Source: Pseudorhodoferax sp. Leaf267
GTDB taxonomy: Bacteria; Pseudomonadota; Gammaproteobacteria; Burkholderiales; Burkholderiaceae_C
Length of the DNA stretch: 64,000 nt
Reading direction: 5' to 3'
Assembly: GCF_001422405.1 (NCBI RefSeq)
Contig: NZ_LMMV01000025.1
Coordinates: 2,107-66,106 of the forward strand
This document shows, in pieces, positions 9,636 through 24,989 of the stretch. Positions within the stretch are counted from its first letter, which is position 1. Every line of letters starts with the position of its first letter. The notes beneath the pieces were generated by a model. It made no database searches. It saw only the letters and a list, made by a program, of their open reading frames with translations, and was not told where the DNA came from. A program made the position numbers and the translations under genes.

Positions 9636-10832
9636 TCAGGGCCGGGCCAGCCTGTCGCGGCCCGCGGCCCTCGCGGCCAGCGATCGGATGGCGGCCGTCA
9701 GGGGGCCCGCCTTCTGCATGGCGGGTTGCTCGATGCAGCGGAACGTGCCGTAGCAGGCCACGACCAGCACGGGCGTCAGCGCGAGCACCGTGCCCCAGTG
9801 CGCCACGGCGGAAAGTTGCCGCGCACCGTCGGGGGCCCGCAGCATCTGGAACGCGAGAAAAAGCATGAGCCCATGCAGCAGGTAGATGCTGTAGGTCATC
9901 TCGCCCAGCAGCCGCGACGTCGGCAGGCGCAGCAGCCCGAAGACCGCACACCCGCCGGCGATCAGGACGAAGGCGCACGCCAGCAGCAGCATCGCGGACG
10001 GTGTGTAGGCGTTGGGGAAGAGCACCACCACCGCCGCCAGCAGCCCGACCACCACGCACGACGTGAGCCGGTGCCGGCACAGTGCCACGAACGCCTGTTG
10101 CCGGACCAGTACCGCCGCCGCCATACCACCGCCGAAGGCGCACAGGTGGAGCAGGACCGGCTGCCACTTCAACAAGCCCAGGAGCGACACGAGCGACAGC
10201 ACGAGCGCGGGCCACGGAGCGCGCCGCCCGGCCAGCAGCGCGATCACGGGCAGTGCCAGGTAGAAGAACCATTCGTAGGGCAGAGACCAGGTCACCCCGG
10301 CCGTCAGCAGGCCGGTGCCGCTCAAGCGGTTGATGTCGGGGCTGCCGAGCACCGTGAACGTCAGCCACCGAGCGGTGTTGCTGGCCAGCTTGGCGACGGG
10401 TTCGTGCAAGGTCCAGTGCGAGGCGTGCATCACCAGCAGCAGCACGAGCGCGATGGTTGCGAAGTAGAGCGGCGCCAGCCGCAGCAGGCGCCCGACGTAC
10501 AGCCGCGTCCAGTCGATGGGCCTCGTCGCCGCGTCCAGGACCTTGGCGTAGAACAGCAGGCCGGTGATCATGAAGAACACCGCCACGCCGCTCTGCCCCA
10601 GATGCGTGTACAGGTGGGAAGGCGGCACACGCCACTGGCCGGTGCGGACATAGAAGTACCAGATGCACGCATGGTGCAGGAACACGAACAGCGCCAGGTA
10701 GCCGCGCAATCCGTCGATCGTTTCGAAGCGGTTGGCGCTCGGCAGCGGCGGGCCCAGCCGACGAATGGCCGCGCACGTTGCGTACGCGACAAGCGTCACG
10801 GCGATGACGGGCAGTGGGCTGGTGGCGTCCAT
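9636..10832 (-). CDS. Acyltransferase 3 (OafA-like) membrane protein
   Basis: This is a 398-residue multi-pass protein of the acyltransferase-3 family, which O-acetylates cell-surface glycans or peptidoglycan. Family signs are the N-terminal ETIDGLRGYLALFVFLHH (with the R-x(n)-H pattern of the first helix), VAVFFMITGLLFYAKVL and a late EMTYSIYLLHGLMLFLAF. About ten hydrophobic helices are apparent. ATG 10832-10830 begins MDATSPLPVIAVTLV, which leads directly into the first helix. It lies 235 bp downstream of the exosortase cassette on the same strand. It may modify a surface polymer related to that cassette, but the gap makes co-transcription uncertain. Confidence 0.88.
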   Translation of the reverse strand: MDATSPLPVIAVTLVAYATCAAIRRLGPPLPSANRFETIDGLRGYLALFVFLHHACIWYFYVRTGQWRVPPSHLYTHLGQSGVAVFFMITGLLFYAKVLDAATRPIDWTRLYVGRLLRLAPLYFATIALVLLLVMHASHWTLHEPVAKLASNTARWLTFTVLGSPDINRLSGTGLLTAGVTWSLPYEWFFYLALPVIALLAGRRAPWPALVLSLVSLLGLLKWQPVLLHLCAFGGGMAAAVLVRQQAFVALCRHRLTSCVVVGLLAAVVVLFPNAYTPSAMLLLACAFVLIAGGCAVFGLLRLPTSRLLGEMTYSIYLLHGLMLFLAFQMLRAPDGARQLSAVAHWGTVLALTPVLVVACYGTFRCIEQPAMQKAGPLTAAIRSLAARAAGRDRLARP

Positions 10833-10860
10833 GGTGATTCGGCTGGCGATGCGGGGGATT

Positions 10861-10882
10861 CGGCGCCGGGCAGCCGGCGCCG
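10861..10882. repeat. Perfect GC-rich inverted repeat
   Basis: CGGCGCCGG (10861-10869), four bases, CCGGCGCCG (10874-10882) forms a 9-bp stem in the 235-bp gap between the glycosyltransferase stop and the acyltransferase start. No T-run follows on either strand, so it is not a canonical terminator. Confidence 0.5.
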
Positions 10883-11067
10883 GATTGTGACGTGTCCACC
10901 GTGCCTTGGGGCAGTCTTTGCGTGCAAGCTGCGTGGCCAAGCCGGCCATCCGCTCATCGTCCGCGTCCTGGTCGTGGGCCGGCCGTGCCTGCGTGGTGGG
11001 GGCGCGGGCGGTGGTGATGTTCGGGCTGCACCGGGCGGCGGCGCGGATGCGGCGGGCCTGATCGTGA

Positions 11068-12321
11068 TCAGTGGGGCTGCGTCGCCGGCAAGGCCTGCCG
11101 CAGGGCGGCGCGTTCGCGTTCGCGCGTGCCCCCGCGCAAGCCCTGGGCCACCCAGCCGGCGCGCGCCAGAGCGGCATCGTCCTGGGCCGCCCGCCGGCGG
11201 GATTCGGCCTCGGGGTTGTGCAGCATGGCCGCCAGCCACACGGCCTGCGCCGGCGCCAGCCGCCGCGCGCCGCGCCCGAAGTGGTGTTGCGCCGCGGCTT
11301 CGGCGCCGCACACGCCGCCGCCCCAGGGCGCGTTGTCCAGGTACAGCTGCAGGATGCGGGCCTTGCCCAGCGTCTGCTCCATCTCCACGGCGTAGAGCAG
11401 CTCGCGCAGCTTGCGGCTGGCGCTGCGTTCATCGCCGGTCACGAGGCGCTTGGCCAGCTGCTGCGTCAGCGTGCTGCCGCCGCGCTGCACCTCGCCGGCG
11501 GACCGGTTGGCGTGCAGCGCGGCCTGCAGCTCGCGCAGGTCGTAGCCCGGGTGTTCGAAGAAGCGCTGGTCCTCGGCCGCCAGCACGGCGCGCGCCAGCC
11601 AGTCGCTACGGCGCAGCCCGCTTGCCGGCCCACAGCTGGAGGCCGCGTGGGCCAGCACCTCGGTGCCCAGGCCTTGCACCGTGAACCCCTCGACCTGCGG
11701 CACCAGGCGCAGCGCGCCGGCCGGCAAGTCCCAACGGGCCTGCAGCGCGACGGTGCCCGTGATGCGTGCCTGGCGCAGCTCGGGCAGTTGCGGGGCCAGC
11801 ACGGCGTAGGCGTCGGCGATGGAGGTGTCGGGCAGGTGGGCGCGCAAGGCCACGCCGCCGCCCTGCAGCCGGCCGCTGAACCAGGCCTGCAGCCGCGAGC
11901 CGTCGGCCGCGCCGGTGCTGGCGCGCAGCGTGCCGTGCAACTGCTCGAAGTCGCGGAACACGGCCAGGTCGAGTTGCGGGACCTGCACCGGGTCGCTGCC
12001 CAGTGCCGGCACCCGCACGCGGCAAGGCGCGCACTGCAGGTGCAGGCTGCGGTCGGCCGCCATCCATTGCAGCCGCACGGGGCCCCAGCGCGTCTGCAGG
12101 CGCAGGCCGTCGAGCCAGTACGCGAACGGCGGTGCGGTTGCCACGCGCAAGACCTGCAGCACGCCGACCTGGGTCGACCACGGGCCGATGCGCAGCGGCG
12201 CCGCCCATTCGCCGGGCTGCGGCGCCAGCGCGCGCACCACCAGCGCGCCGGCCAGCAGCGCCGTGAGTGGCAGTGCGAGCACGCAGGCCAGCAGCAGGCA
12301 CAGCGCGCGGGGCCGGGTCAC
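11068..12321 (-). CDS. Biosynthetic peptidoglycan glycosyltransferase (GT51) with unusual N-terminal region
   Basis: GT51 enzymes polymerise lipid II into glycan strands. The C-terminal half (about residues 215-380 of 417) has all the motifs: EDQRFFEHPGYD with the catalytic Glu, GGSTLTQQLAKRL, RKLRELLYAVEMEQTLGKARILQLYLD and a final GVCGAEAAAQHHFG. There is no transpeptidase domain. Unlike the usual 230-240 residue monofunctional MtgA, about 190 residues follow the N-terminal membrane helix (residues 5-27) before the catalytic domain, with a Cys pair in LHLQCAPCRVRVPALG. The start is GTG 12321-12319, overlapping the upstream stop by 4 bp (GTGA), so translation is coupled to the exosortase genes. 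That linkage suggests a role tied to the sorted surface protein. Confidence 0.83.
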   Translation of the reverse strand: MTRPRALCLLLACVLALPLTALLAGALVVRALAPQPGEWAAPLRIGPWSTQVGVLQVLRVATAPPFAYWLDGLRLQTRWGPVRLQWMAADRSLHLQCAPCRVRVPALGSDPVQVPQLDLAVFRDFEQLHGTLRASTGAADGSRLQAWFSGRLQGGGVALRAHLPDTSIADAYAVLAPQLPELRQARITGTVALQARWDLPAGALRLVPQVEGFTVQGLGTEVLAHAASSCGPASGLRRSDWLARAVLAAEDQRFFEHPGYDLRELQAALHANRSAGEVQRGGSTLTQQLAKRLVTGDERSASRKLRELLYAVEMEQTLGKARILQLYLDNAPWGGGVCGAEAAAQHHFGRGARRLAPAQAVWLAAMLHNPEAESRRRAAQDDAALARAGWVAQGLRGGTRERERAALRQALPATQPH

Positions 12322-12902
12322 GGAAGCGCTCCGCGCGCCAGCGGCACGGCAGTGGTCACGGCCAGCCAGGGGCCGGTGGACTGGTCGCCCAGCGCGGCCC
12401 AGTACCAGGCCGAGGTGTCGGTGAAAGCCTGGCCTTGCGCATCGGTGATGCGCTCGCAAACGCGTAGTGGCGCAGCGCCCGCCCGCGTGGCGACGAAGCA
12501 GCGCCAGCGGCGCTGCTGCGCGTCGTCTTCGAGCCGGATGTCGTCGATGCGGTAGCCCAGCGCGCGGTAGCAGTCCACGGCCGGGTGCAGCATGCGGGTG
12601 GGCGCGTTGACATGGCGCATCACGAGCACATGGCGCTCGTCGGTCAGGCGCGCAAGTTGCCCGGGGAATTGGCGTGCGAAGCGCTGCTCGACAGGGCTCA
12701 GGGCCAGCGGGCGCAGCGCGGCGCCGTCCCATTGCGTGGGCCATTCCCAGGCCGCCGCGTGGGTGGGCTGCGCGTCGGCAGGCCACAGGGCCTGGGCCAG
12801 CGACCACACGGCGCACAGGCCCAGCGCGGCGGCGAAGGCCGTCTTGTGCAGCACGCGCTGCACGAAGCGGTTGGCGAACAGGGTTTCAAGCCGCGTGGGC
12901 AT
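12318..12902 (-). CDS. Putative exosortase-associated protein (EpsI/DUF3485-like?)
   Basis: This 194-residue protein has one N-terminal membrane anchor (about residues 20-40, TAFAAALGLCAVWSLAQALW) and an extracytoplasmic domain. The central HPAVDCYRALGYRIDDIRLEDD recalls the Cys-Tyr segment of EpsI/DUF3485 proteins that accompany exosortases. That similarity is loose and I rate it as a suggestion. ATG 12902-12900 overlaps the exosortase 3' end by 17 bp, and its stop overlaps the glycosyltransferase start by 4 bp, so it is the third gene of a translationally coupled operon. It could assist exosortase folding or substrate processing. Confidence 0.62.
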   Translation of the reverse strand: MPTRLETLFANRFVQRVLHKTAFAAALGLCAVWSLAQALWPADAQPTHAAAWEWPTQWDGAALRPLALSPVEQRFARQFPGQLARLTDERHVLVMRHVNAPTRMLHPAVDCYRALGYRIDDIRLEDDAQQRRWRCFVATRAGAAPLRVCERITDAQGQAFTDTSAWYWAALGDQSTGPWLAVTTAVPLARGALP

Positions 12903-13764
12903 GGCGGGCTCCCGGGGTGAAGGTGCAGGAAGAACGGACCGGCCGCGCCATCCACCAGGCGATGGCGCCGCACACGGCGGCCAGCACGGCCAGGCCCAGC
13001 GCCTCGTGGCCCCAGGCCGGCAGCGGCCGGCCCGCGCCTTCGGCCGCCACCAGCAGGCTGTTGCGCACGATGTTGCCGGCCAGCACCGCCAGGCCCACGC
13101 CCGGCAGGCGCGCCAGCACCGTGCGGTCCGCATGCCGCGCCCACAGTGCCACGGCGCAGGCCGTGAAGTAGCCCAGCCAGACCATCTGCACGCCGGAGCA
13201 GGGCGCGTCCACGATCACCAGCCGGCCGTCGACCAGCAGGGTGCTGCCCTGGCGCCAGACCTCGAAGGCCGGTGCCAGCAGCCAGCGCGAAGCCTCGGCC
13301 GTCAGCACGCGCAGCGGGTAGCCGGCATAGAACTGCAGCGACGACAGCAGCGGCAGCGCCAGCACGGCCAGGCCCAGCACCGGCGTGGCCGCCACCTGGC
13401 GTGGCAGAAAGGCCAGCAGCCCCGCCGCCAATGCCAGCACGGCCAGCAGGCTGGCGAGCAGCGGGGCGATGGGGCCGCGCGCCACGGTGGCGGCCAGCGT
13501 CAGCAGCAGCGCCGCGCCCAGCCATGCGAGGGCGGGCGAGGCGCGCAGGCTGCGGCGGTGCACGCCCACCAGCAGCGCCAGGCCGGCCAGTGCCAGGAGG
13601 CCCAGCGGGTCGTCCGACCCATCGGCCAGCCGGCGTGCCATCCAGGCCCAGGCCGGCAGCAGGGCCAGGGCCTGCAGAGCCATCCAGCTCCAGGACGGCA
13701 GCCGATCGATGGCAATGCCCCAGCGCACGAAGCGCGGGTTGCGAACCAAGGTGTGCGAGTTCAT
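12886..13764 (-). CDS. Exosortase (EpsH family transpeptidase/protease)
   Basis: This 292-residue multi-pass membrane protein has about eight hydrophobic helices. Exosortases cleave C-terminal PEP-CTERM-type signals and are thought to attach the protein to the cell surface. The predicted catalytic residues are all present in order: Cys in VDAPCSGVQMVWLGY (about residue 155), Arg in AGNIVRNSLLVAAEG (about residue 200) and His in LPAWGHEALGLAVLAA. ATG 13764-13762 overlaps the stop of the VIT/VWA gene (ATGA). There is no fused C-terminal EpsI domain, and the next gene may supply it. The immediate neighbour carries a matching sorting tail, so this looks like a dedicated one-substrate enzyme. I cannot assign an Xrt subtype letter. 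Confidence 0.88.
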   Translation of the reverse strand: MNSHTLVRNPRFVRWGIAIDRLPSWSWMALQALALLPAWAWMARRLADGSDDPLGLLALAGLALLVGVHRRSLRASPALAWLGAALLLTLAATVARGPIAPLLASLLAVLALAAGLLAFLPRQVAATPVLGLAVLALPLLSSLQFYAGYPLRVLTAEASRWLLAPAFEVWRQGSTLLVDGRLVIVDAPCSGVQMVWLGYFTACAVALWARHADRTVLARLPGVGLAVLAGNIVRNSLLVAAEGAGRPLPAWGHEALGLAVLAAVCGAIAWWMARPVRSSCTFTPGARHAHAA

Positions 13765-15827
13765 GCCGTGAACCTCCCGGCCTTGGCCCGCCGAGCCCGC
13801 CGATGCAGCATGGCCAGCATCGACAGCACCAGCAGCACGGCGCCCAGCGTCTCGGGCTCCGGTGTGCTCGGCACCTCGGCTCCGGCGACCACGGTGGCCG
13901 TCTCGCCCACGGCCAAAGCGCTCACGCCCTGTGGCAACGGCTGCGGCTGCTGCACGCGGGTGCTGTCGGCCGGGTTGGGGTTGCGCACCACCTGGTCCAC
14001 GGCGATGAAGCTGGTGTAGGGCGTGAGCAGCGTGTAGCGCAGGCCCAGCTGCGTGATGGCGCTTCGGAACGCGTCGCCGCCTTCCAGCGCTTCCTGGTCG
14101 GACAGCTGCGCGATGCGATGCCGCGCCCACAGTGCGGGCAGGGCAGCGCCTTGCGCGTCCGGCATGGCCGGCACGTCGATGGCCTGCTGCCAGGGGCCGG
14201 CGGCCGTGTGGCCTTGCACCAGCAAACGGCCTTGCGGCTGGCCGCGCCACTTGCCGAACACCAGCACCGGGCGCTCGCCCAGCACATCGGGCTGCACGGC
14301 CGGTTCCAGGTCGTACACGTCCAGTCCCTCGAAGCGCAGCTTCACGCTGGTCAGCACGGGCGACTCCACCATCTGGCGAAAGCGCGCCGCCTGCTCGGGC
14401 GCCTGCACCGGGTCCGTGATGATGAAGGGCTCGCCGCGGCCGGCGCGGGCCAGGCCTTCGATCAGCGCGCGGTTCACCGACGAGCCGATGCCGAACGCGA
14501 ACAGGTTGGCCTGGTCCAGGTGCTTGCGCACGAGCGCGAAGGCTTCCTGCTCGACCGTCACGTAGCCGTCGGTCACGACCACGATGCTGCGCGACACATC
14601 GGGCGCCTTGGGCTCGGCGTAGACGCGGCGCAGCGCGGGGATCAGCTCGGTGCCGCCGCTGCCCTGGGTCTGGCCCAGCGCGGCCAGCGCGCGCTCGATG
14701 TTGGCCTGCGTGGCCGGCACGGCCTTGGGCGCCAGCATGCGGCTGCTGCCCGAGAACAGCAGCACGTTGAAGCGGTCGCTGGGCCGCAGGCCACCGATCA
14801 GGCGCTGCAGCATGGCCTTGGCCGTGTCCAGCGGAAAACCGTGCATGGAGCCCGAGATGTCGACCACGAAGATGTATTCGCGCGGCGCGATCTGCGTGGC
14901 GGCCACGGCCTTGGGCGGTTGCACGAGCGCGAGGAAGAAGTTCTCCGCATCCGGCCCCTGGCCCTGCGACAGCATCAGGCCCGCGGCGAGCTGGTCGCCG
15001 GCCAGGCGGTAGTCGAGCACGAAGTCGCGGTTGTTCGCAGGGCCGCGGCCATCGGCCAGCTGGATGGTGGCCTGCGTGGGCTGGTCAGCCGACTGCTGCA
15101 CCTCGATGGCATGCGTGCGCGAGCGGATGTCGTGGATCGCCAGCGGCGCGGCGATCCTGGCCTGCAGTGTGAACGCGCTGGCAGGCGCCTCGCCCTCGCG
15201 CAGCGTGGGCTGCGCGGCCCAGGCGTTGCGGCCGTCGGCCGTGGGCGCGCCGGCATAGCGCGGGCCGACCACGGTGGGGAAGACGAACGCATAGCGGCCG
15301 GCCTCGGGCAGCAGCAGCTCGGTGTAGCGCAGCTCCACCTGCACCTCGTCGCCGGGCAGGATGTTGGCCACGCGCATCTGGAACACGTTGGGGCGCTGTT
15401 GCTCCAGCAGCGCGGCGGTCTTGCCTTCCTGCCTGGCGGCGGCGTATTCGATGCGCGCCTGCTGCTTCTCGCGGATCTGCGCCGTGATGAGCCGGTCGGC
15501 GATGCGCACCTGCATGCCGCCCACGGCCGCGCGCGTGGAGCCCGGGAACACGTAGTCGGCCTCGATGGCGCGCTGGCCCTCGTTGCGGTAGTGCTGCGTG
15601 ACGCGCACCTCGGCGATCACGCCGGAGACCTGCACGTCCACGGCCGTGCGCTTGAGCGGCAATGCGTCCACGCCGGGCAGGCCGCCGCGCACGAAGAAGT
15701 AGGGGCTCTCGGTCTGCTGGCGCGGGCCGGCGTCGATCGCGGCGGCAGGCCGGTGGGACAGGGCGGCGACGACGGCCAGCGCCATCGTGGCGGCCCATCG
15801 CCAGGCGGCGCTTCGGTTGGTGGACAT
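13761..15827 (-). CDS. VIT/VWA domain surface protein with PEP-CTERM-like sorting tail
   Basis: This is a 688-residue exported protein. The order is a signal peptide (about 1-30, ending RPAAA), a vault/inter-alpha-trypsin VIT domain (about 48-180; VSGVIAEVRVTQHYRNEG, EADYVFPGSTRAAV), a von Willebrand A domain with an intact MIDAS (VDISGSMHG near residue 325, then SGGTELIPALRRV and VVVTDGYVT), and a long tail. The last 33 residues read PEPETLGAVLLVLSMLAMLH followed by an Arg-rich end. That is the tripartite PEP motif, hydrophobic helix and basic tail recognised by exosortases. ATG 15827-15825 is preferred over an upstream ATG because it begins the signal peptide. VIT/VWA proteins are known dedicated sortase targets (the TIGR03788 type) and XrtN targets, which supports the pairing with the adjacent exosortase. 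Confidence 0.9.
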   Translation of the reverse strand: MSTNRSAAWRWAATMALAVVAALSHRPAAAIDAGPRQQTESPYFFVRGGLPGVDALPLKRTAVDVQVSGVIAEVRVTQHYRNEGQRAIEADYVFPGSTRAAVGGMQVRIADRLITAQIREKQQARIEYAAARQEGKTAALLEQQRPNVFQMRVANILPGDEVQVELRYTELLLPEAGRYAFVFPTVVGPRYAGAPTADGRNAWAAQPTLREGEAPASAFTLQARIAAPLAIHDIRSRTHAIEVQQSADQPTQATIQLADGRGPANNRDFVLDYRLAGDQLAAGLMLSQGQGPDAENFFLALVQPPKAVAATQIAPREYIFVVDISGSMHGFPLDTAKAMLQRLIGGLRPSDRFNVLLFSGSSRMLAPKAVPATQANIERALAALGQTQGSGGTELIPALRRVYAEPKAPDVSRSIVVVTDGYVTVEQEAFALVRKHLDQANLFAFGIGSSVNRALIEGLARAGRGEPFIITDPVQAPEQAARFRQMVESPVLTSVKLRFEGLDVYDLEPAVQPDVLGERPVLVFGKWRGQPQGRLLVQGHTAAGPWQQAIDVPAMPDAQGAALPALWARHRIAQLSDQEALEGGDAFRSAITQLGLRYTLLTPYTSFIAVDQVVRNPNPADSTRVQQPQPLPQGVSALAVGETATVVAGAEVPSTPEPETLGAVLLVLSMLAMLHRRARRAKAGRFTA

Positions 15828-15954
15828 GGTGGCGGTCACTTTCTTTTCGCTGGGTGCTGGCTGTGCGACGGTGCACGGTGGCAACTTTCGGCGGCGCCTG
15901 CGAAGCGGGTGAGAAGTGATCGCGGCTGTGTGAAGCCTGTGTGAAGTCCGGGCG

Positions 15955-15980
15955 AAAAAAAAAGCCCGCGCGGTGCGGGC
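15955..15980 (-). terminator. Rho-independent terminator of the glycine-zipper gene
   Basis: Read leftward, GCCCGC (15980-15975), a 5-nt loop, GCGGGC (15969-15964) and a run of nine T. It lies 22 bp past the stop of the leftward gene ending at 16003 and separates it from the VIT/VWA operon. Confidence 0.85.
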
Positions 15981-20141: not shown

Positions 20142-21098
20142 ATGGTCCCCAGCCTGCCCTCCATCCTGGCGCGCCTGCGCTTTCGCCACCTGTCGCTGCT
20201 GATCGCGCTGGACGAGCACGGCTCCCTGCACAAGGCCGCTCAGCGCACCGGCATGACGCAGCCGGGCCTCACACGCGCGCTGCACGAGATCGAGCTGACC
20301 TTCGGCGCGCCGCTGTTCACGCGCTCGGCGCGTGGCATGGCCGCCACCGAGCTGGGGCAATGCGTGCTGCGCCATGCCCGGCTGATCGCGGCCGACGTGG
20401 GCCAGCTGCGTGAAGAGATCGAGGGCGTGCTGCGCGGCAGCGGCGGGCGCATCGCGGTCGGCGCCATCGCGGGCGCGCTGCACGGCGTGCTGGTGGCGGC
20501 CATCGGCCGGCTGCGCGCGCAGCAGCCGGCGCTGTCGGTCGAGGTGCGCGAGGCCACCAGCGTGGAGCTGCTGCAACTGCTGGGCGAGGGCCGGCTGGAC
20601 CTGGCGGTTTGCCGTACCACGGTGCTGCCGTACCCCGAGCAGTTCCACTACGAGCCGCTGCTGGACGAGCACGTGGCCGTGGCGGCCCACCCGCGCCACC
20701 CGCTGCTGCAGGCCGGCCCTGTCACGCTGGACCAGCTGGCCGGCTGCGCATGGATCTTCTACCCGGCCCATCTGCCGCTGCGCTCGCTGCTGGAGCGTGC
20801 CTTCCACGAGGCCGGCCTGGCGCTGCCGCGCCACGCGGTGGAGACGGCGTCCACCTTCGCCACCATGCTGCTGCTGCGCGAGGACACCCAGGCCGTGGCG
20901 CTGATGACCGAGGCCACCATGGCCTTCTGCGAGCACCACGGCGTCGCCGCGCGGCTACCGATCGCCATCACCGCGCGCCACGAGGGCTACGGCATCGTCA
21001 CGCGGCACGGCGCGCAGTCCTCACCCTTGACCGGCATGCTGGCGCAATGCTTGCGCGATGCGGCGCGCGCGCAGCCTGGGCCCGCTGCACCGGCTTAG
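20142..21098 (+). CDS. LysR-family regulator of the FAH-SDR-Bug operon
   Basis: This 318-residue LysR protein has a winged helix (residues 8-70, FRHLSLLIALDEHGSLHKAA, GMTQPGLTRALHEIELTFG) and an effector domain of the GalA/CbsK-like type (GRIAVGAIAGALHGVLVAAI). Divergent placement from the FAH gene and the dyad at 20097-20113 indicate that it controls that operon and itself. The 3' end overlaps the convergent creC gene by 4 bp (stops at 21096-21098 and 21095-21097 on opposite strands). The ligand is presumably a pathway sugar acid. Confidence 0.9.
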   Translation: MVPSLPSILARLRFRHLSLLIALDEHGSLHKAAQRTGMTQPGLTRALHEIELTFGAPLFTRSARGMAATELGQCVLRHARLIAADVGQLREEIEGVLRGSGGRIAVGAIAGALHGVLVAAIGRLRAQQPALSVEVREATSVELLQLLGEGRLDLAVCRTTVLPYPEQFHYEPLLDEHVAVAAHPRHPLLQAGPVTLDQLAGCAWIFYPAHLPLRSLLERAFHEAGLALPRHAVETASTFATMLLLREDTQAVALMTEATMAFCEHHGVAARLPIAITARHEGYGIVTRHGAQSSPLTGMLAQCLRDAARAQPGPAAPA

Positions 21099-22549
21099 TC
21101 GGGCTTTCGCGCAGGTAGCCCCAGCGTCGCCAGCGCTCCGCCCCCAGCCGCGTTCTCCAGCGTGGCCTTGCCGCCGTGCTGCTGCGCGATCTCCTGCACG
21201 AACGCCAGGCCCAGCCCCGTGCTGCGCTTGCCGCTGGCGGGCCGCGCGAGCGAATAGAACTTCTGGAACACCTGGGCCTGGGCATAGGCCGGGATGCCGG
21301 GGCCGTGGTCGCGCACGGTGATGCGCACACGGCGGCCCGTGGCGTGCAAGCCCAGTTCGATGGCGCTGCCCGCGGACGCGAAGTCCATCGCATTGGCCAG
21401 CAGGTTGGCGACGGCGCGGCGCAGCAGGAAGGGGTCGCCCCAGACCACGGGCTGGTCCTGCAGCGCGAGGTCGAGGCGCAGCCCGCGCGCTGCCGCGGCG
21501 GCCTGGTGGCTGGCGGCCAGTTCCTCCAGCAGCGGCGCCAGCGGCACGGCCTGCGCGTGCTCCAGCACGCGGCGGCTCTCCAGCGCGGTCAGCTCCATCA
21601 TGCGGTCCACGATCTCCTGCACGCGCTGCGTCTCGCGCGTGATGTTGGCCAGGAAGCGCTCGCGGTCGGCCGCCGGCATGGCAGGGTCTTCCAGCAGCTC
21701 GGCCGCACCGCGGATGGCCGACAGCGGGCTCTTGATCTCGTGCGTGAGCGTCTGCACGTAGTCGGCCACCGTGTTGCGGCCGGTCAGCGCGTCGCGCATC
21801 TCGTGCACGCCGCTGCGCAAGGTGGCCACTGCATGGCGCGCCATGGGGCCGGGGCGCAGGCGCGGCTGCGTGCGCGTCCAGGCCAGGTAGTCGCGCACCA
21901 GGCCGAACGGCCGCACCAGCCACACCGACACGATGACGGCCCCCACCAGCAGGGCGAGCGCAGAGCCCACGCCGACCCAGATCGTGCGCCAGCGCGCGTC
22001 CTGCACGAACTTGCCGAAGCTCTGCACCGGCTTGCCCACGCTGACCACGCCGATGGTCACGCGATCGCGGCTGCGGATGGGCGCAGCCACGTACATGACC
22101 GAGCTGGTGGCATCGTGCGCCACGTCGCGCGAGGTGCGCGCGCCGTACAGGCCGTCCAGCGTGTAGCGCACGTCGCGCCATTCGACGAAGTTCTCGCCCA
22201 GGTGCTGGCCCGTGCGCTCGCGCTGCGCGTCGAAGATCACGCGGCCGTCAGCGTCGGTCACGTACAGGCGCAGGTCCACGCGCGTCTTGCGCAGGCCGTA
22301 GATCTCGGCGTCGAACTGGCGCGCGTACAGGTTGCGCAGCAGCGGCTCCAGCCGCGCCGGCTCGATGCGCTCGCCGTGCACGTCCTGCTCGATCAGGCTG
22401 GCCATGAGGTTGGCCGTGTCGACCAGCGATTCCTCGGCCGACTCGCGGTAGCGCGGGTCGATGTCGCCGACCACGCGGACCAGCAGGAAGGCGATGCCGG
22501 CGACGTAGATCGCCAGCATGCCCACGAAGATGCGCGTGCGGCGGCTCAC
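21095..22549 (-). CDS. creC: Sensor histidine kinase CreC
   Basis: This 484-residue membrane sensor kinase has TM1 at residues 6-25, a periplasmic sensor domain with the CreC-type pattern ESLVDTANLMASLIEQDV and MYVAAPIRSRDRVTIGVVSVGKPV, and TM2 around 190-212. The HisKA domain carries the phospho-accepting His in QTLTHEIKSPLSAIRG. The HATPase domain has the N box (NLLANAMDFA), G1 (DHGPGIP) and G2 (STGLGLAFV). The start is GTG 22549-22547, overlapping the creB stop (GTGA). In enterics CreBC responds to carbon and fermentation status. Here it is the last gene of a run with phnA and a Na/Pi transporter, so its signal may differ. Confidence 0.9.
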   Translation of the reverse strand: MSRRTRIFVGMLAIYVAGIAFLLVRVVGDIDPRYRESAEESLVDTANLMASLIEQDVHGERIEPARLEPLLRNLYARQFDAEIYGLRKTRVDLRLYVTDADGRVIFDAQRERTGQHLGENFVEWRDVRYTLDGLYGARTSRDVAHDATSSVMYVAAPIRSRDRVTIGVVSVGKPVQSFGKFVQDARWRTIWVGVGSALALLVGAVIVSVWLVRPFGLVRDYLAWTRTQPRLRPGPMARHAVATLRSGVHEMRDALTGRNTVADYVQTLTHEIKSPLSAIRGAAELLEDPAMPAADRERFLANITRETQRVQEIVDRMMELTALESRRVLEHAQAVPLAPLLEELAASHQAAAAARGLRLDLALQDQPVVWGDPFLLRRAVANLLANAMDFASAGSAIELGLHATGRRVRITVRDHGPGIPAYAQAQVFQKFYSLARPASGKRSTGLGLAFVQEIAQQHGGKATLENAAGGGALATLGLPARKPD

Positions 22550-23286
22550 GGCAAGGTCGCGGGCAGGTTCTCGTGCAGCGCGTAGCCGGTGCCGCGCAGC
22601 GTGCGGATCGGCTCGACCTCCGGCGCCACGGCCTTGAGCTTGGCGCGCAGCGTCTTGATGTGGGCGTCCACCGTGCGGTCCAGGCTCTGCGCGGCGTCGT
22701 CCCAGACCATCTCCAGCAGCTCGTCGCGCGTGTAGACGCGGCCGGCGCGCTGCACCAGCAGGGCCAGCAGGCCGTACTCGTAGCGCGACAGGTCCAGGGC
22801 GCGGCCGTAGTAGCGGATCTGCCGGCGCTCGCCGTCGATCTGGAACACGGGTGGCGTGGCGGCCACCGGTGCCGCGGGCACGCCGCCGCCACGCGCGCTG
22901 CGCCGCAGGATGGTGCGCACGCGCGCCACCAGCTCGCGCGGCGAGAAGGGCTTGGCGATGTAGTCGTCCGCGCCCAGCTCCAGCCCGACCACGCGGTCGA
23001 TCTCGTCGCTGCGCGCGGTGAGGAACAGCATGGGTACGGCGTCGGCGCCGGGCAGCTCGTGCAGGCGGCGGAACAGCTCGAAGCCGTTCATGTCCGGCAG
23101 GCCCACGTCCAGGATGGCCAGTGCCGGCACCTGGGCGCGGAACTGCGCCAGCGCCTCGCCGGCCGTGGCGCACCACACCGGCTCGTAGCCGTCGGCGCGC
23201 AGCACGTAGCGCAGCGTGTCGGCGATGCCGGATTCGTCTTCGGCGATCAGGATGCGGGCGCGGCTGTCGGGGGCGGGCGGTTGCAT
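22546..23286 (-). CDS. creB: Response regulator CreB (OmpR family)
   Basis: This 246-residue OmpR/PhoB-type regulator has a receiver domain (residues 10-125) with acidic pocket EDE, phospho-Asp in LAILDVGLPDMNGFELF, the switch Thr in FLTAR and Lys in DDYIAKPFSPRELVARV. The C-terminal winged helix shows the family end RTLRGTGYALHENL. ATG 23286-23284 begins MQPPAPDSRARILIAEDE. It lies 26 bp after the Na/Pi transporter gene and overlaps creC by 4 bp. The partner pairing is secure from adjacency and sequence type. Its regulon here is unknown. Confidence 0.92.
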   Translation of the reverse strand: MQPPAPDSRARILIAEDESGIADTLRYVLRADGYEPVWCATAGEALAQFRAQVPALAILDVGLPDMNGFELFRRLHELPGADAVPMLFLTARSDEIDRVVGLELGADDYIAKPFSPRELVARVRTILRRSARGGGVPAAPVAATPPVFQIDGERRQIRYYGRALDLSRYEYGLLALLVQRAGRVYTRDELLEMVWDDAAQSLDRTVDAHIKTLRAKLKAVAPEVEPIRTLRGTGYALHENLPATLP

Positions 23287-23312: not shown

Positions 23313-24989
23313 TCAACCGAGGTCGGCAGGCGCCAGGGCCGTGCTGGACGCCGCCGCCTGCAGGCGGCTCGGCGCCAGTGCGCCGGCCGACTCGAGGATC
23401 GGATAGGCCATGGAGCAGATGTGCGAGTTGATGCGCTTGAGCTCGCTGATGAGGTCGATGTGCAGCGAACTGGTCTCGATGCTCTGCGCCGTGTTGTTGC
23501 GCAGGCGTGCCAGGTGCGTGCCGGCGTAGGCGCGCTCCAGGTCGCGGAACCGGGCCTTCTCCTCCAGCAGCTTGCGTGCATCGCGCTCCGTGCCGTGCAG
23601 GAACACGCCCATGCTGAGCCGCAGGTTGCCGACCAGGCGGGCGTGCAGCTCGCAGATCTCGGCCATGCCGGCCTGCGAGAAGCTGTAGCCCTTGCGGATC
23701 TTCTTGTCCTCGATGTCGGTGATCACGCGTTCGACGATGTCGCCGATCTGCTCCATGTTGATCGTGAAGCTGATGATGTCGGCCCAGCGCCGGCTTTCGG
23801 CCTCGGCCAGGGCCTCGCGCGAGATCTTCGTCAGGTAGTACTTGATGGCCGAGTAGAGCGCGTCCACCGTGTCGTCCAGCTGGCGCAGCTCCTGCGCCAG
23901 CCGCAGGTCGTTGCGCTGGATGACCTGCAGCAGCCCGCGTACCATGGTCTCCACCACGTCGGCCTGGTGCAAGGCCTCGCGCGTGGCGCACGCGATCGCC
24001 AGCGACGGTGTCGCCAGTGCGGACGGGTCCAGATGGTGTGGCCGGCCGGCCGCGGGGGCCGGCTCGGGCGGAGGAAGGCACTGCTGCACCCAGCCGGCCG
24101 CCACCTGTGTGAAGCCCAGCAGCAGCACCGCCACCGCCGCGTTGAAGCCGAGGTGGAACAGCACGACCGCCGTGGCATCGTCGCCCAGGGCGGGGCGCGC
24201 ATGGTGCGACCACAGGCCCGCCAAAGGCGCGATGGTCGCGACACCGATCACCTTGAACACCAGATTGCCCAGTGGCACCTGGCGCACCTCCACAGCGGAC
24301 CGGGCGGTGGTCAGGACGGCGAGCAACCCGCTGCCCAGGTTGGCGCCGAGCACCAAGCCGAGCGCCACGTCCAGCGACACGGCGCCCGACGCGGCCAGCG
24401 TGGCGGTCAGCAGAACGATGGCCAGGCTCGAGTACGCAACGATGGCCAGTACGGCGCCCAGCGTGATCTCCAGCAACAGGTCGCTGCCGAGCGAGCCCAG
24501 CATGGCCTTGACCGCGGACGATTGCGTGACGGCGGCGGCCGATGCCGACACCAGCCGCAGCGCCAGCAGCATGAGCCCCAGGCCGATGAGGATGCGCCCG
24601 ATGCGGCCGGCATCCGTGGCCGGGCGGGCGATGAACAGCACCACCCCGACCAGGATGAACAGCGGCGACAGCCACGACAGGTCGAACGAGAACACCACTG
24701 CCATCAGGCTGGTGCCCACGTCGGCGCCCAGCATGACGGCCAGCGCCAGAGGCAGCTTGACAAGGCCCTGGCCCACGAACGACGCCACGATCAGGGCCGT
24801 GGCCGTGCTCGACTGCACCAGGGCCGTGACGGCGATGCCCGAGGCCATTGCCGTGCCGCGGTTGCGGATGCTGCGCGCCAGCACCTGGCGCAGGTTGGTG
24901 CCGAACACGCGCAGGATGCCGGTGCGCACGGTGTGCGTGCCCCAGACCAGCAGGGCGATCGCGGCCAGAAGATTCAACAGGTGCTGCAT
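23313..24989 (-). CDS. Na/Pi-cotransporter family protein with PhoU-like tail
   Basis: This 558-residue protein is of the NptA/YjbB type. The N-terminal ~310 residues hold two inverted Na/Pi-cotransporter repeats with the QSSTA signature (TALVQSSTATALIVASFVGQG and a degenerate second copy, AYSSLAIVLLTATLAASG). GADVGTSLMA and GANLGSGLLAVL follow each. The C-terminal ~230 residues are helical and PhoU-like (VETMVRGLLQVIQRNDLRLAQELRQLDD). Relatives such as E. coli YjbB can export phosphate. It starts 23 bp after the Bug gene in the phnA unit, so removal of phosphate released by phosphonoacetate hydrolysis is an attractive but untested role. Confidence 0.9.
   Translation of the reverse strand: MQHLLNLLAAIALLVWGTHTVRTGILRVFGTNLRQVLARSIRNRGTAMASGIAVTALVQSSTATALIVASFVGQGLVKLPLALAVMLGADVGTSLMAVVFSFDLSWLSPLFILVGVVLFIARPATDAGRIGRILIGLGLMLLALRLVSASAAAVTQSSAVKAMLGSLGSDLLLEITLGAVLAIVAYSSLAIVLLTATLAASGAVSLDVALGLVLGANLGSGLLAVLTTARSAVEVRQVPLGNLVFKVIGVATIAPLAGLWSHHARPALGDDATAVVLFHLGFNAAVAVLLLGFTQVAAGWVQQCLPPPEPAPAAGRPHHLDPSALATPSLAIACATREALHQADVVETMVRGLLQVIQRNDLRLAQELRQLDDTVDALYSAIKYYLTKISREALAEAESRRWADIISFTINMEQIGDIVERVITDIEDKKIRKGYSFSQAGMAEICELHARLVGNLRLSMGVFLHGTERDARKLLEEKARFRDLERAYAGTHLARLRNNTAQSIETSSLHIDLISELKRINSHICSMAYPILESAGALAPSRLQAAASSTALAPADLG

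Follow-up and report, generated by a model that had tools for sequence, protein, structure and literature searches.

A probable CreBC-controlled envelope module built around a one-substrate exosortase in Pseudorhodoferax sp. Leaf267

Four genes on the minus strand of Pseudorhodoferax sp. Leaf267 (contig NZ_LMMV01000025.1), in a stretch of 64,000 nucleotides that is referred to here as the window and whose numbering is used throughout, overlap head to tail by 4, 17 and 4 bp, exactly as the initial annotation of this DNA had described. They encode a protein with VIT and VWA domains, an exosortase, a small EpsI-like protein and a peptidoglycan glycosyltransferase of family 51 (GT51), and they are preceded by a direct repeat that matches the published binding tag of the response regulator CreB. 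The features of this cassette, as recognized in hidden Markov model (HMM) scans and by the further evidence given with each, are as follows.

13761..15827, minus strand: VIT/VWA protein, 688 amino acids, the sorting substrate (HMM scans; tail conserved in relatives)
12886..13764, minus strand: exosortase Q (XrtQ), 292 amino acids, with C189, R234 and H253 (HMM scan, alignment)
12318..12902, minus strand: helper protein, 194 amino acids, putatively EpsI-like (HMM scan, alignment, AlphaFold model)
11068..12321, minus strand: monofunctional GT51 peptidoglycan glycosyltransferase, 417 amino acids, GTG start (HMM scans, alignment, fold search)
15930..15945, minus strand: cre/blr tag TTCAC-ACAGGC-TTCAC, a predicted CreB-binding direct repeat (match to the published consensus)

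The VIT/VWA protein is matched by the VIT model PF08487 at 118.4 bits and by VWA models; its N-terminus resembles a signal peptide, as judged by eye, and its C-terminus has the PEP motif, hydrophobic helix and Arg-rich tail that had been proposed at the outset, with a marginal pass of the PEP_CTERM model TIGR02595 (16.6 bits vs a cut-off of 16, residues 655-679 of 688). The adjoining exosortase matches exosortase_XrtQ (NF012182) over the whole profile (1-256 of 256) with 376.6 bits, against a curated cut-off of 270. Its residues C189, G191, N231, R234, H253 and G257 show no variation across the 22 rows of an alignment, in agreement with the Cys, Arg and His motifs noted initially, and C189, R234 and H253 fall inside the three motifs (Cys-X-Gly, Asn-X-X-Arg, His-X-X-X-Gly) given in the available text of PMC1569441, which places the protein in the exosortase superfamily as delimited there. 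Neither the exosortase nor its pairing with a VIT protein is new: XrtQ is a named NCBIfam family, and VIT proteins are also paired with exosortase T (XrtT) and with XrtQ-like enzymes.

The third protein had been called EpsI-like. This description stands as far as an inferred likeness to the C-terminal part of exosortase T is concerned, which was its sole match (34.7 bits), and fails with respect to named families: no Pfam family matched it, so that it is not a DUF3485 protein, nor did any NCBIfam EpsI model. Residues H106, P107 and C111 are invariant in 23 rows, an N-terminal helix that could serve as a membrane anchor is present, and the protein is fused to the exosortase in a few loci (L034 and L061, for example). 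Its AlphaFold model has a predicted local distance difference test (pLDDT) score of 90.2, and a fold search with that model returned no match at E under 0.001.

Assignment of the fourth gene to GT51 is borne out by a match to Transgly (PF00912) of 153.8 bits and by intact catalytic motifs, whose residues are invariant in 25 of 25 rows and include E250 and E307, which we take to be the catalytic glutamates; C97, C100, C230 and C338 are invariant in the same rows. The model (pLDDT 85.6) has the peptidoglycan glycosyltransferase fold, with a best E of 5.7e-9 to 3nb6. MtgA (TIGR02070) was rejected as a family for this protein (149.4 bits vs a cut-off of 182.65), which has an extra N-terminal portion made up of a helix and a beta-rich domain with a CxxC at 97-100. 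This domain has no clear Pfam family (three families were each matched by one of 19 members, at E 0.05-0.1) and no match of its own among the best 50 fold matches listed. It was found in nine of 399 genomes of the order, seven of them genomes with the VIT-XrtQ cassette. It was rejected as a unique marker of the cassette, because G286 and G309 have it in a stand-alone GT51 with VIT and XrtQ not nearby; stand-alone GT51 genes of this type lie at L168:8761-10050 and L169:8560-9879, where the 18 kb fetched contain no VIT or XrtQ gene. An acyltransferase gene (9636-10979) lies downstream of GT51 in the window, on the same strand.

Related loci were sought by a scan of genome contigs with exosortase patterns taken from the window sequence, a procedure that favours near relatives. 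The scan gave 72 loci, mostly from Variovorax, the other genera being Pseudorhodoferax, Xenophilus, Xylophilus, Curvibacter and Rhodoferax; VIT was present in 70, the helper in 71 and the cassette GT51 in 69, where the contigs of L063 and L096 end before VIT and that of L080 ends after the exosortase. A family search produced 16 matches in 399 genomes of the order, five of them over the cut-off, and 14 in 370 genomes of the class, two of them over the cut-off and one of these being the window's own. The regions fetched hold the full four-gene set in G245, G168 and G349, while in G370 the cassette contig ends within GT51 and the remainder of a GT51 lies on another contig. Chance origin of the cassette is excluded, because identical gene order recurs in dozens of loci.

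Co-occurrence of the four genes had been put forward as a check on a stable coupling to GT51, and the coupling was largely sustained: in 78 loci, GT51 is found downstream of XrtQ and the helper in 74 and is absent in four. This set omits L080 and the duplicates G318 (= L048) and G159 (= L058), includes the window, and does not collapse near-identical loci (L074 and L075, for example); in L063 and L096, two of the 74, the contig is cut so that VIT cannot be seen. In a tree of 30 exosortases, loci with GT51 fall in both branches that arise from the first split within their clade (support 97/93), and this distribution, together with the 74 of 78 loci, rules out GT51 as an accidental neighbour. 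Rooted with the XrtQ-like and XrtT outgroup, on which the conclusion depends, the tree indicates that GT51 was probably ancestral in the cassette and was lost about three times.

The number of potential substrates was assessed in 58 genome handles, representing 56 distinct genomes, that came from 48 of the 72 loci and ten sampled genomes; selection was by hand, and the loci omitted were mostly those of Variovorax and of fragmentary contigs from metagenome-assembled genomes (MAGs). Exosortases over the EpsH cut-off and PEP-CTERM matches at E 0.05 were counted per genome, and control genomes gave zero PEP-CTERM matches. XrtQ scores under the EpsH cut-off, so that a match over it marks a second enzyme. 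In the 42 distinct XrtQ genomes that lack a second enzyme over this cut-off, PEP-CTERM matches numbered none in nine, one in 32 and three in one (the MAG G442, where one of the three is the VIT tail), and comparison of coordinates placed the single match at the end of the VIT gene adjoining XrtQ in all 32. The 14 XrtQ genomes with a second exosortase, on the other hand, have 2-31 matches each. The window's own genome, which the initial annotation had proposed to search for other PEP-CTERM proteins, contains 26 matches over the cut-off, that is, 25 besides the VIT tail; taken alone this number would contradict a single substrate, but the genome also encodes XrtA (347 bits vs a cut-off of 208), which likely serves the other 25. 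XrtQ thus appears to behave as a one-substrate enzyme with the VIT protein as its target, as had been surmised.

The cassette also carries a regulatory signature that the initial annotation had missed, comprising the tag upstream of the operon, which is that of the CreB regulon and a predicted CreB site, and a CreBC pair in the same window. The tag ends (3') 102 bases before the VIT start codon. As TTCACN6TTCAC, it is the sole exact match in the window (0.03 expected); the 6.5-Mb genome has five matches, vs one for a control pattern, and by eye only the remaining four were placed within or next to coding frames. Such tags are critical for the binding of activated CreB, according to the available portions of PMC4689548 and PMC3660660. 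Within 300 bp before the VIT gene, 71 of 76 distinct loci have a perfect tag (duplicates L121 (= L048) and L122 (= L058) removed, the window added), as do 38 of 43 non-redundant loci selected regardless of the tag. When half-site spacers of 0-14 were tried, only a spacer of 6 gave more than one locus, and the reverse strand gave none; TTCAC ranked first of 1024 five-mers upstream of VIT, and the next-ranked words were overlapping registers. Perfect tags are present in L145, L128 and L129 as well, and absent from L146-L149 and L151.

Several loci show variations on this arrangement. An extra gene stands before VIT at L126:4759-5643 and L127:3917-4969, with a product that gave a weak, sub-threshold VIT-like match, and the tags of these loci are in front of the extra gene, two in tandem in L126. 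In the draft genome of L102 the matches to VIT, exosortase and GT51 are shortened and the frames look broken, with the tag still upstream. A variant with one base changed per half, TGCACN6TGCAC, was noticed after the fact in some XrtT and XrtQ-like VIT systems, once per locus and close to the beginning of the operon that holds VIT or the exosortase (L147:11923 and L148:5828, minus strand; L151:8127, plus strand; L204:11576, minus strand), with an expectation of 0.01-0.04 in L147, L148 and L151; L151 and L204 represent one genus, and no exact match was found in L146 or L149.

Three further features lie upstream of the cassette.

21095..22549, minus strand: CreC sensor histidine kinase, 5' end approximate (NF008312, 533.6 bits, cut-off 356)
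22546..23268, minus strand: CreB response regulator, 5' end approximate (NF008296, 305.2 bits, cut-off 273)
15955..15980, minus strand: intrinsic-terminator-like hairpin with T-run, directly upstream of the cre tag (one found; shuffled versions of the 5.3-kb stretch would give 1.4, so weak alone)

The hairpin would set the cassette apart from the gene before it. CreBC is encoded directly upstream of VIT in L094, L104, L058 and L145, and CreC occurs in the flanks of at least 51 of 86 sequences, many loci ending before CreBC would be reached. Of the 399 genomes sampled from the order, 50 have CreC over the cut-off, vs eight of eight genomes with VIT and XrtQ (Fisher p 3.6e-8, relatedness ignored), and ten of ten when the XrtQ-like G031 and G075 were added (p 4e-10, the genomes not being independent). 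This test omitted six of the 16 family matches (G055, G089, G112, G148, G219 and G244, at 19.6-23.7 bits), which were taken as other exosortases; none of the six is among the CreC-positive genomes. A Na/Pi symporter gene (23313-24989) precedes creB in the window, and L147 and L149 have CreBC-like pairs that score below the Cre cut-offs. The CreB-type operon of Burkholderia was set aside as a different operon, with no orthologues in Comamonadaceae according to the accessible text of PMC5192318.

CreD, an output of CreBC that is called a protein of unknown function in the available text of PMC2654508, is over the cut-off in 38 of the 58 handles and has no match in the window's genome. Because of this incomplete distribution, the cassette may be the main CreBC output in several lineages. 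Many Variovorax loci (L048:501-5789, for example) have genes for a PBP1A-family protein and CreD divergent from VIT, forming one block of wall and sorting genes.

Overall, these findings make it probable, in our estimation, that the cassette forms an envelope module around a one-substrate exosortase and that CreBC controls it. Computed evidence for this reading comprises gene order and overlaps, the sorting tail, conserved residues, single-substrate counts, the tag, and the co-occurrence and linkage of CreBC; the binding of CreB, the inducing signal, the cleavage step, the acceptor and what GT51 contributes are our inferences. Induction of an envelope module by CreBC is proposed because CreBC can respond to peptidoglycan stress, the pair in P. 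aeruginosa being activated by loss or inhibition of PBP4, as reported in the available text of PMC2654508. By this analogy, the sorting of surface proteins may be linked to stress on the cell wall. CreC would sense disturbed peptidoglycan, or another of its signals, and phosphorylated CreB would bind TTCACN6TTCAC and switch on one transcript of the four genes. The VIT/VWA protein, once exported, would be retained through its C-terminal helix in the inner membrane, where XrtQ and the EpsI-like helper may cut at the PEP motif by means of C189 and pass the protein to an acceptor. Meanwhile, GT51 would polymerise lipid II, either to supply the strand beside which the VIT protein is set or to carry out wall repair alongside sorting.

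A number of observations weigh against this proposal. CreBC is not adjacent to the cassette in the window, where it lies about 5 kb upstream with other genes between, and it is about 42 kb and 15 kb from the VIT gene in G245 and G168, respectively, and on another contig in G258. Five of the 76 loci lack a perfect tag within 300 bp, two of them (L103, L123) having one mismatch and three (L102, L126, L127) a perfect tag farther upstream, and no sigma-70 promoter match was found. The signal may not be the wall at all: E. coli CreBC answers metabolic signals, and the S. maltophilia creD promoter hardly answered beta-lactams (both from the accessible part of PMC4689548). GT51 is missing from L094, L104, L123/G258 and L145/G718, and since VIT, XrtQ and the helper are all retained in these four loci, GT51 is probably dispensable for sorting. 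Most loci, moreover, are from Comamonadaceae and are not independent.

How closely GT51 is tied to sorting divides the alternatives. A narrower form of the proposal holds that the two share regulation only, GT51 being a CreB-induced wall-repair gene with no mechanistic tie to sorting. We regard this as a serious possibility, if somewhat short of probable. It accords with the separability of GT51 in the four loci just named, with a gap between the helper and GT51 genes that ranges from -4 to +672 bp across loci, and with the other wall genes (PBP1A family, CreD) that adjoin Variovorax cassettes; it accounts less well for the N-terminal domain of GT51, which is nearly private to the cassettes (seven of nine genomes) and exceeds the needs of a generic polymerase.

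In the model originally offered, the co-translated GT51 makes nascent peptidoglycan or lipid II, to which XrtQ or its partner passes the VIT protein, leaving it bound to new wall; this is in our judgement unlikely. The tight gene overlap in the window, the retention of GT51 in 74 of 78 loci and on both main branches of the tree, and a tag and neighbouring regulator tied elsewhere to peptidoglycan stress all speak for it. They are countered by the four loci in which GT51 was lost or never present, and by the XrtQ-like and XrtT loci (L128, L129, L146-L149, L151), whose fetched stretches contain no cassette GT51; nor do we know of any exosortase with a demonstrated peptidoglycan acceptor. A peptidoglycan context gains plausibility from the link to CreBC, which does not, however, identify the acceptor. 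Extended further, the idea would have XrtQ transfer the VIT/VWA protein, under wall stress sensed by CreBC, to lipid II or to the glycan strand made by GT51, as a Gram-negative counterpart of sortase anchoring, with the cassette replacing CreD as the main CreBC output in several lineages; this full scenario we consider decidedly doubtful.

The identity of the regulator is a separate matter. OmpR-family regulators commonly bind direct repeats with a period of 11 bp, and CreBC is not adjacent in every locus, so that TTCACN6TTCAC could be the site of a family member other than CreB. This is improbable, in that the repeat agrees exactly with the CreB tag in the available published text and CreC is present in all ten genomes of the order sample that have XrtQ or an XrtQ-like enzyme at 128 bits or more. 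Least credible by far is an ordinary PEP-CTERM system with XrtQ as one of two exosortases serving many proteins, an impression created by the 26 matches and two exosortases of the window's genome and ruled out by the genome-wide counts, in which 41 of 42 genomes without a second exosortase have no PEP-CTERM match except the VIT tail (E 0.05), and by the identity of the second enzyme as XrtA.

An operon that groups a one-substrate exosortase with its target, a helper and a lipid II polymerase, probably under a defined stress regulator, is close to the simplest case in which the acceptor and the purpose of exosortases could be found. It would also give CreBC a concrete new set of targets and, in Gram-negative bacteria, connect the sorting of proteins with peptidoglycan stress.

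In relation to known systems, the exosortase itself is a full-length match to exosortase Q (NF012182), to which the present analysis adds the VIT partner, GT51 and the CreB tag, although curators of NCBIfam may already know the VIT partner. Literature searches, from which subscription journals were mostly absent, returned only unrelated papers for exosortase Q or XrtQ by name, and nothing joining an exosortase with a VIT domain or with CreB; no description of the four-gene cassette was among the matches listed. Exosortase T (NF033770) is paired with VIT in L149 and L151, and its C-terminal domain resembles the helper; unlike the window system, it is a fused enzyme with no GT51 in the fetched stretches and no TTCAC tag. 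XrtT adjoins a VIT protein with a PEP-like tail at L149:3360-7035 (637.6 bits) and L151:7910-11965 (618.9 bits), and may also be a VIT-dedicated exosortase. In L128, L129, L146, L147 and L148, an XrtQ-like enzyme and helper adjoin a different protein of about 800 amino acids with a PEP-like tail; the two tested, those of L128 and L147, were confirmed to have a VIT domain, and the L147 protein partly matches the XrtN target family. XrtN itself (TIGR04476, target TIGR04477) likewise combines an exosortase with a VIT-domain target, but the window exosortase scored 21.5 against its cut-off of 200, and the VIT protein gave no TIGR04477 match.

The class GN sortase system comprises a VIT/VWA target (TIGR03788, the marine proteobacterial sortase target) and its own two-component pair (TIGR03785/TIGR03787). 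It resembles the cassette in that the sorting enzyme has a VIT/VWA protein to itself and that an OmpR-type two-component pair is dedicated to the system; the two differ in that the pair in the window is CreBC and that the VIT tail has a PEP motif in place of LPXTG, and the window VIT protein, with its PEP tail, falls outside TIGR03788 (442.9 vs a cut-off of 551.65). Sortases and exosortases, furthermore, are unrelated enzymes according to the available text of PMC1569441. The CreBC-CreD/BlrAB regulon is matched in CreB and CreC, both over their cut-offs, and in the exact tag that stands upstream of creD in the accessible published accounts, whereas the tagged operon of the window encodes a sorting system. 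With the XrtA/EpsH PEP-CTERM system the cassette shares the three catalytic motifs and the plan of the tail; in the portions of PMC1569441 available, epsH is nearly always found amid exopolysaccharide genes, with PrsK/PrsR proposed as regulators, whereas XrtQ has one substrate and in many loci adjoins genes of the cell wall.

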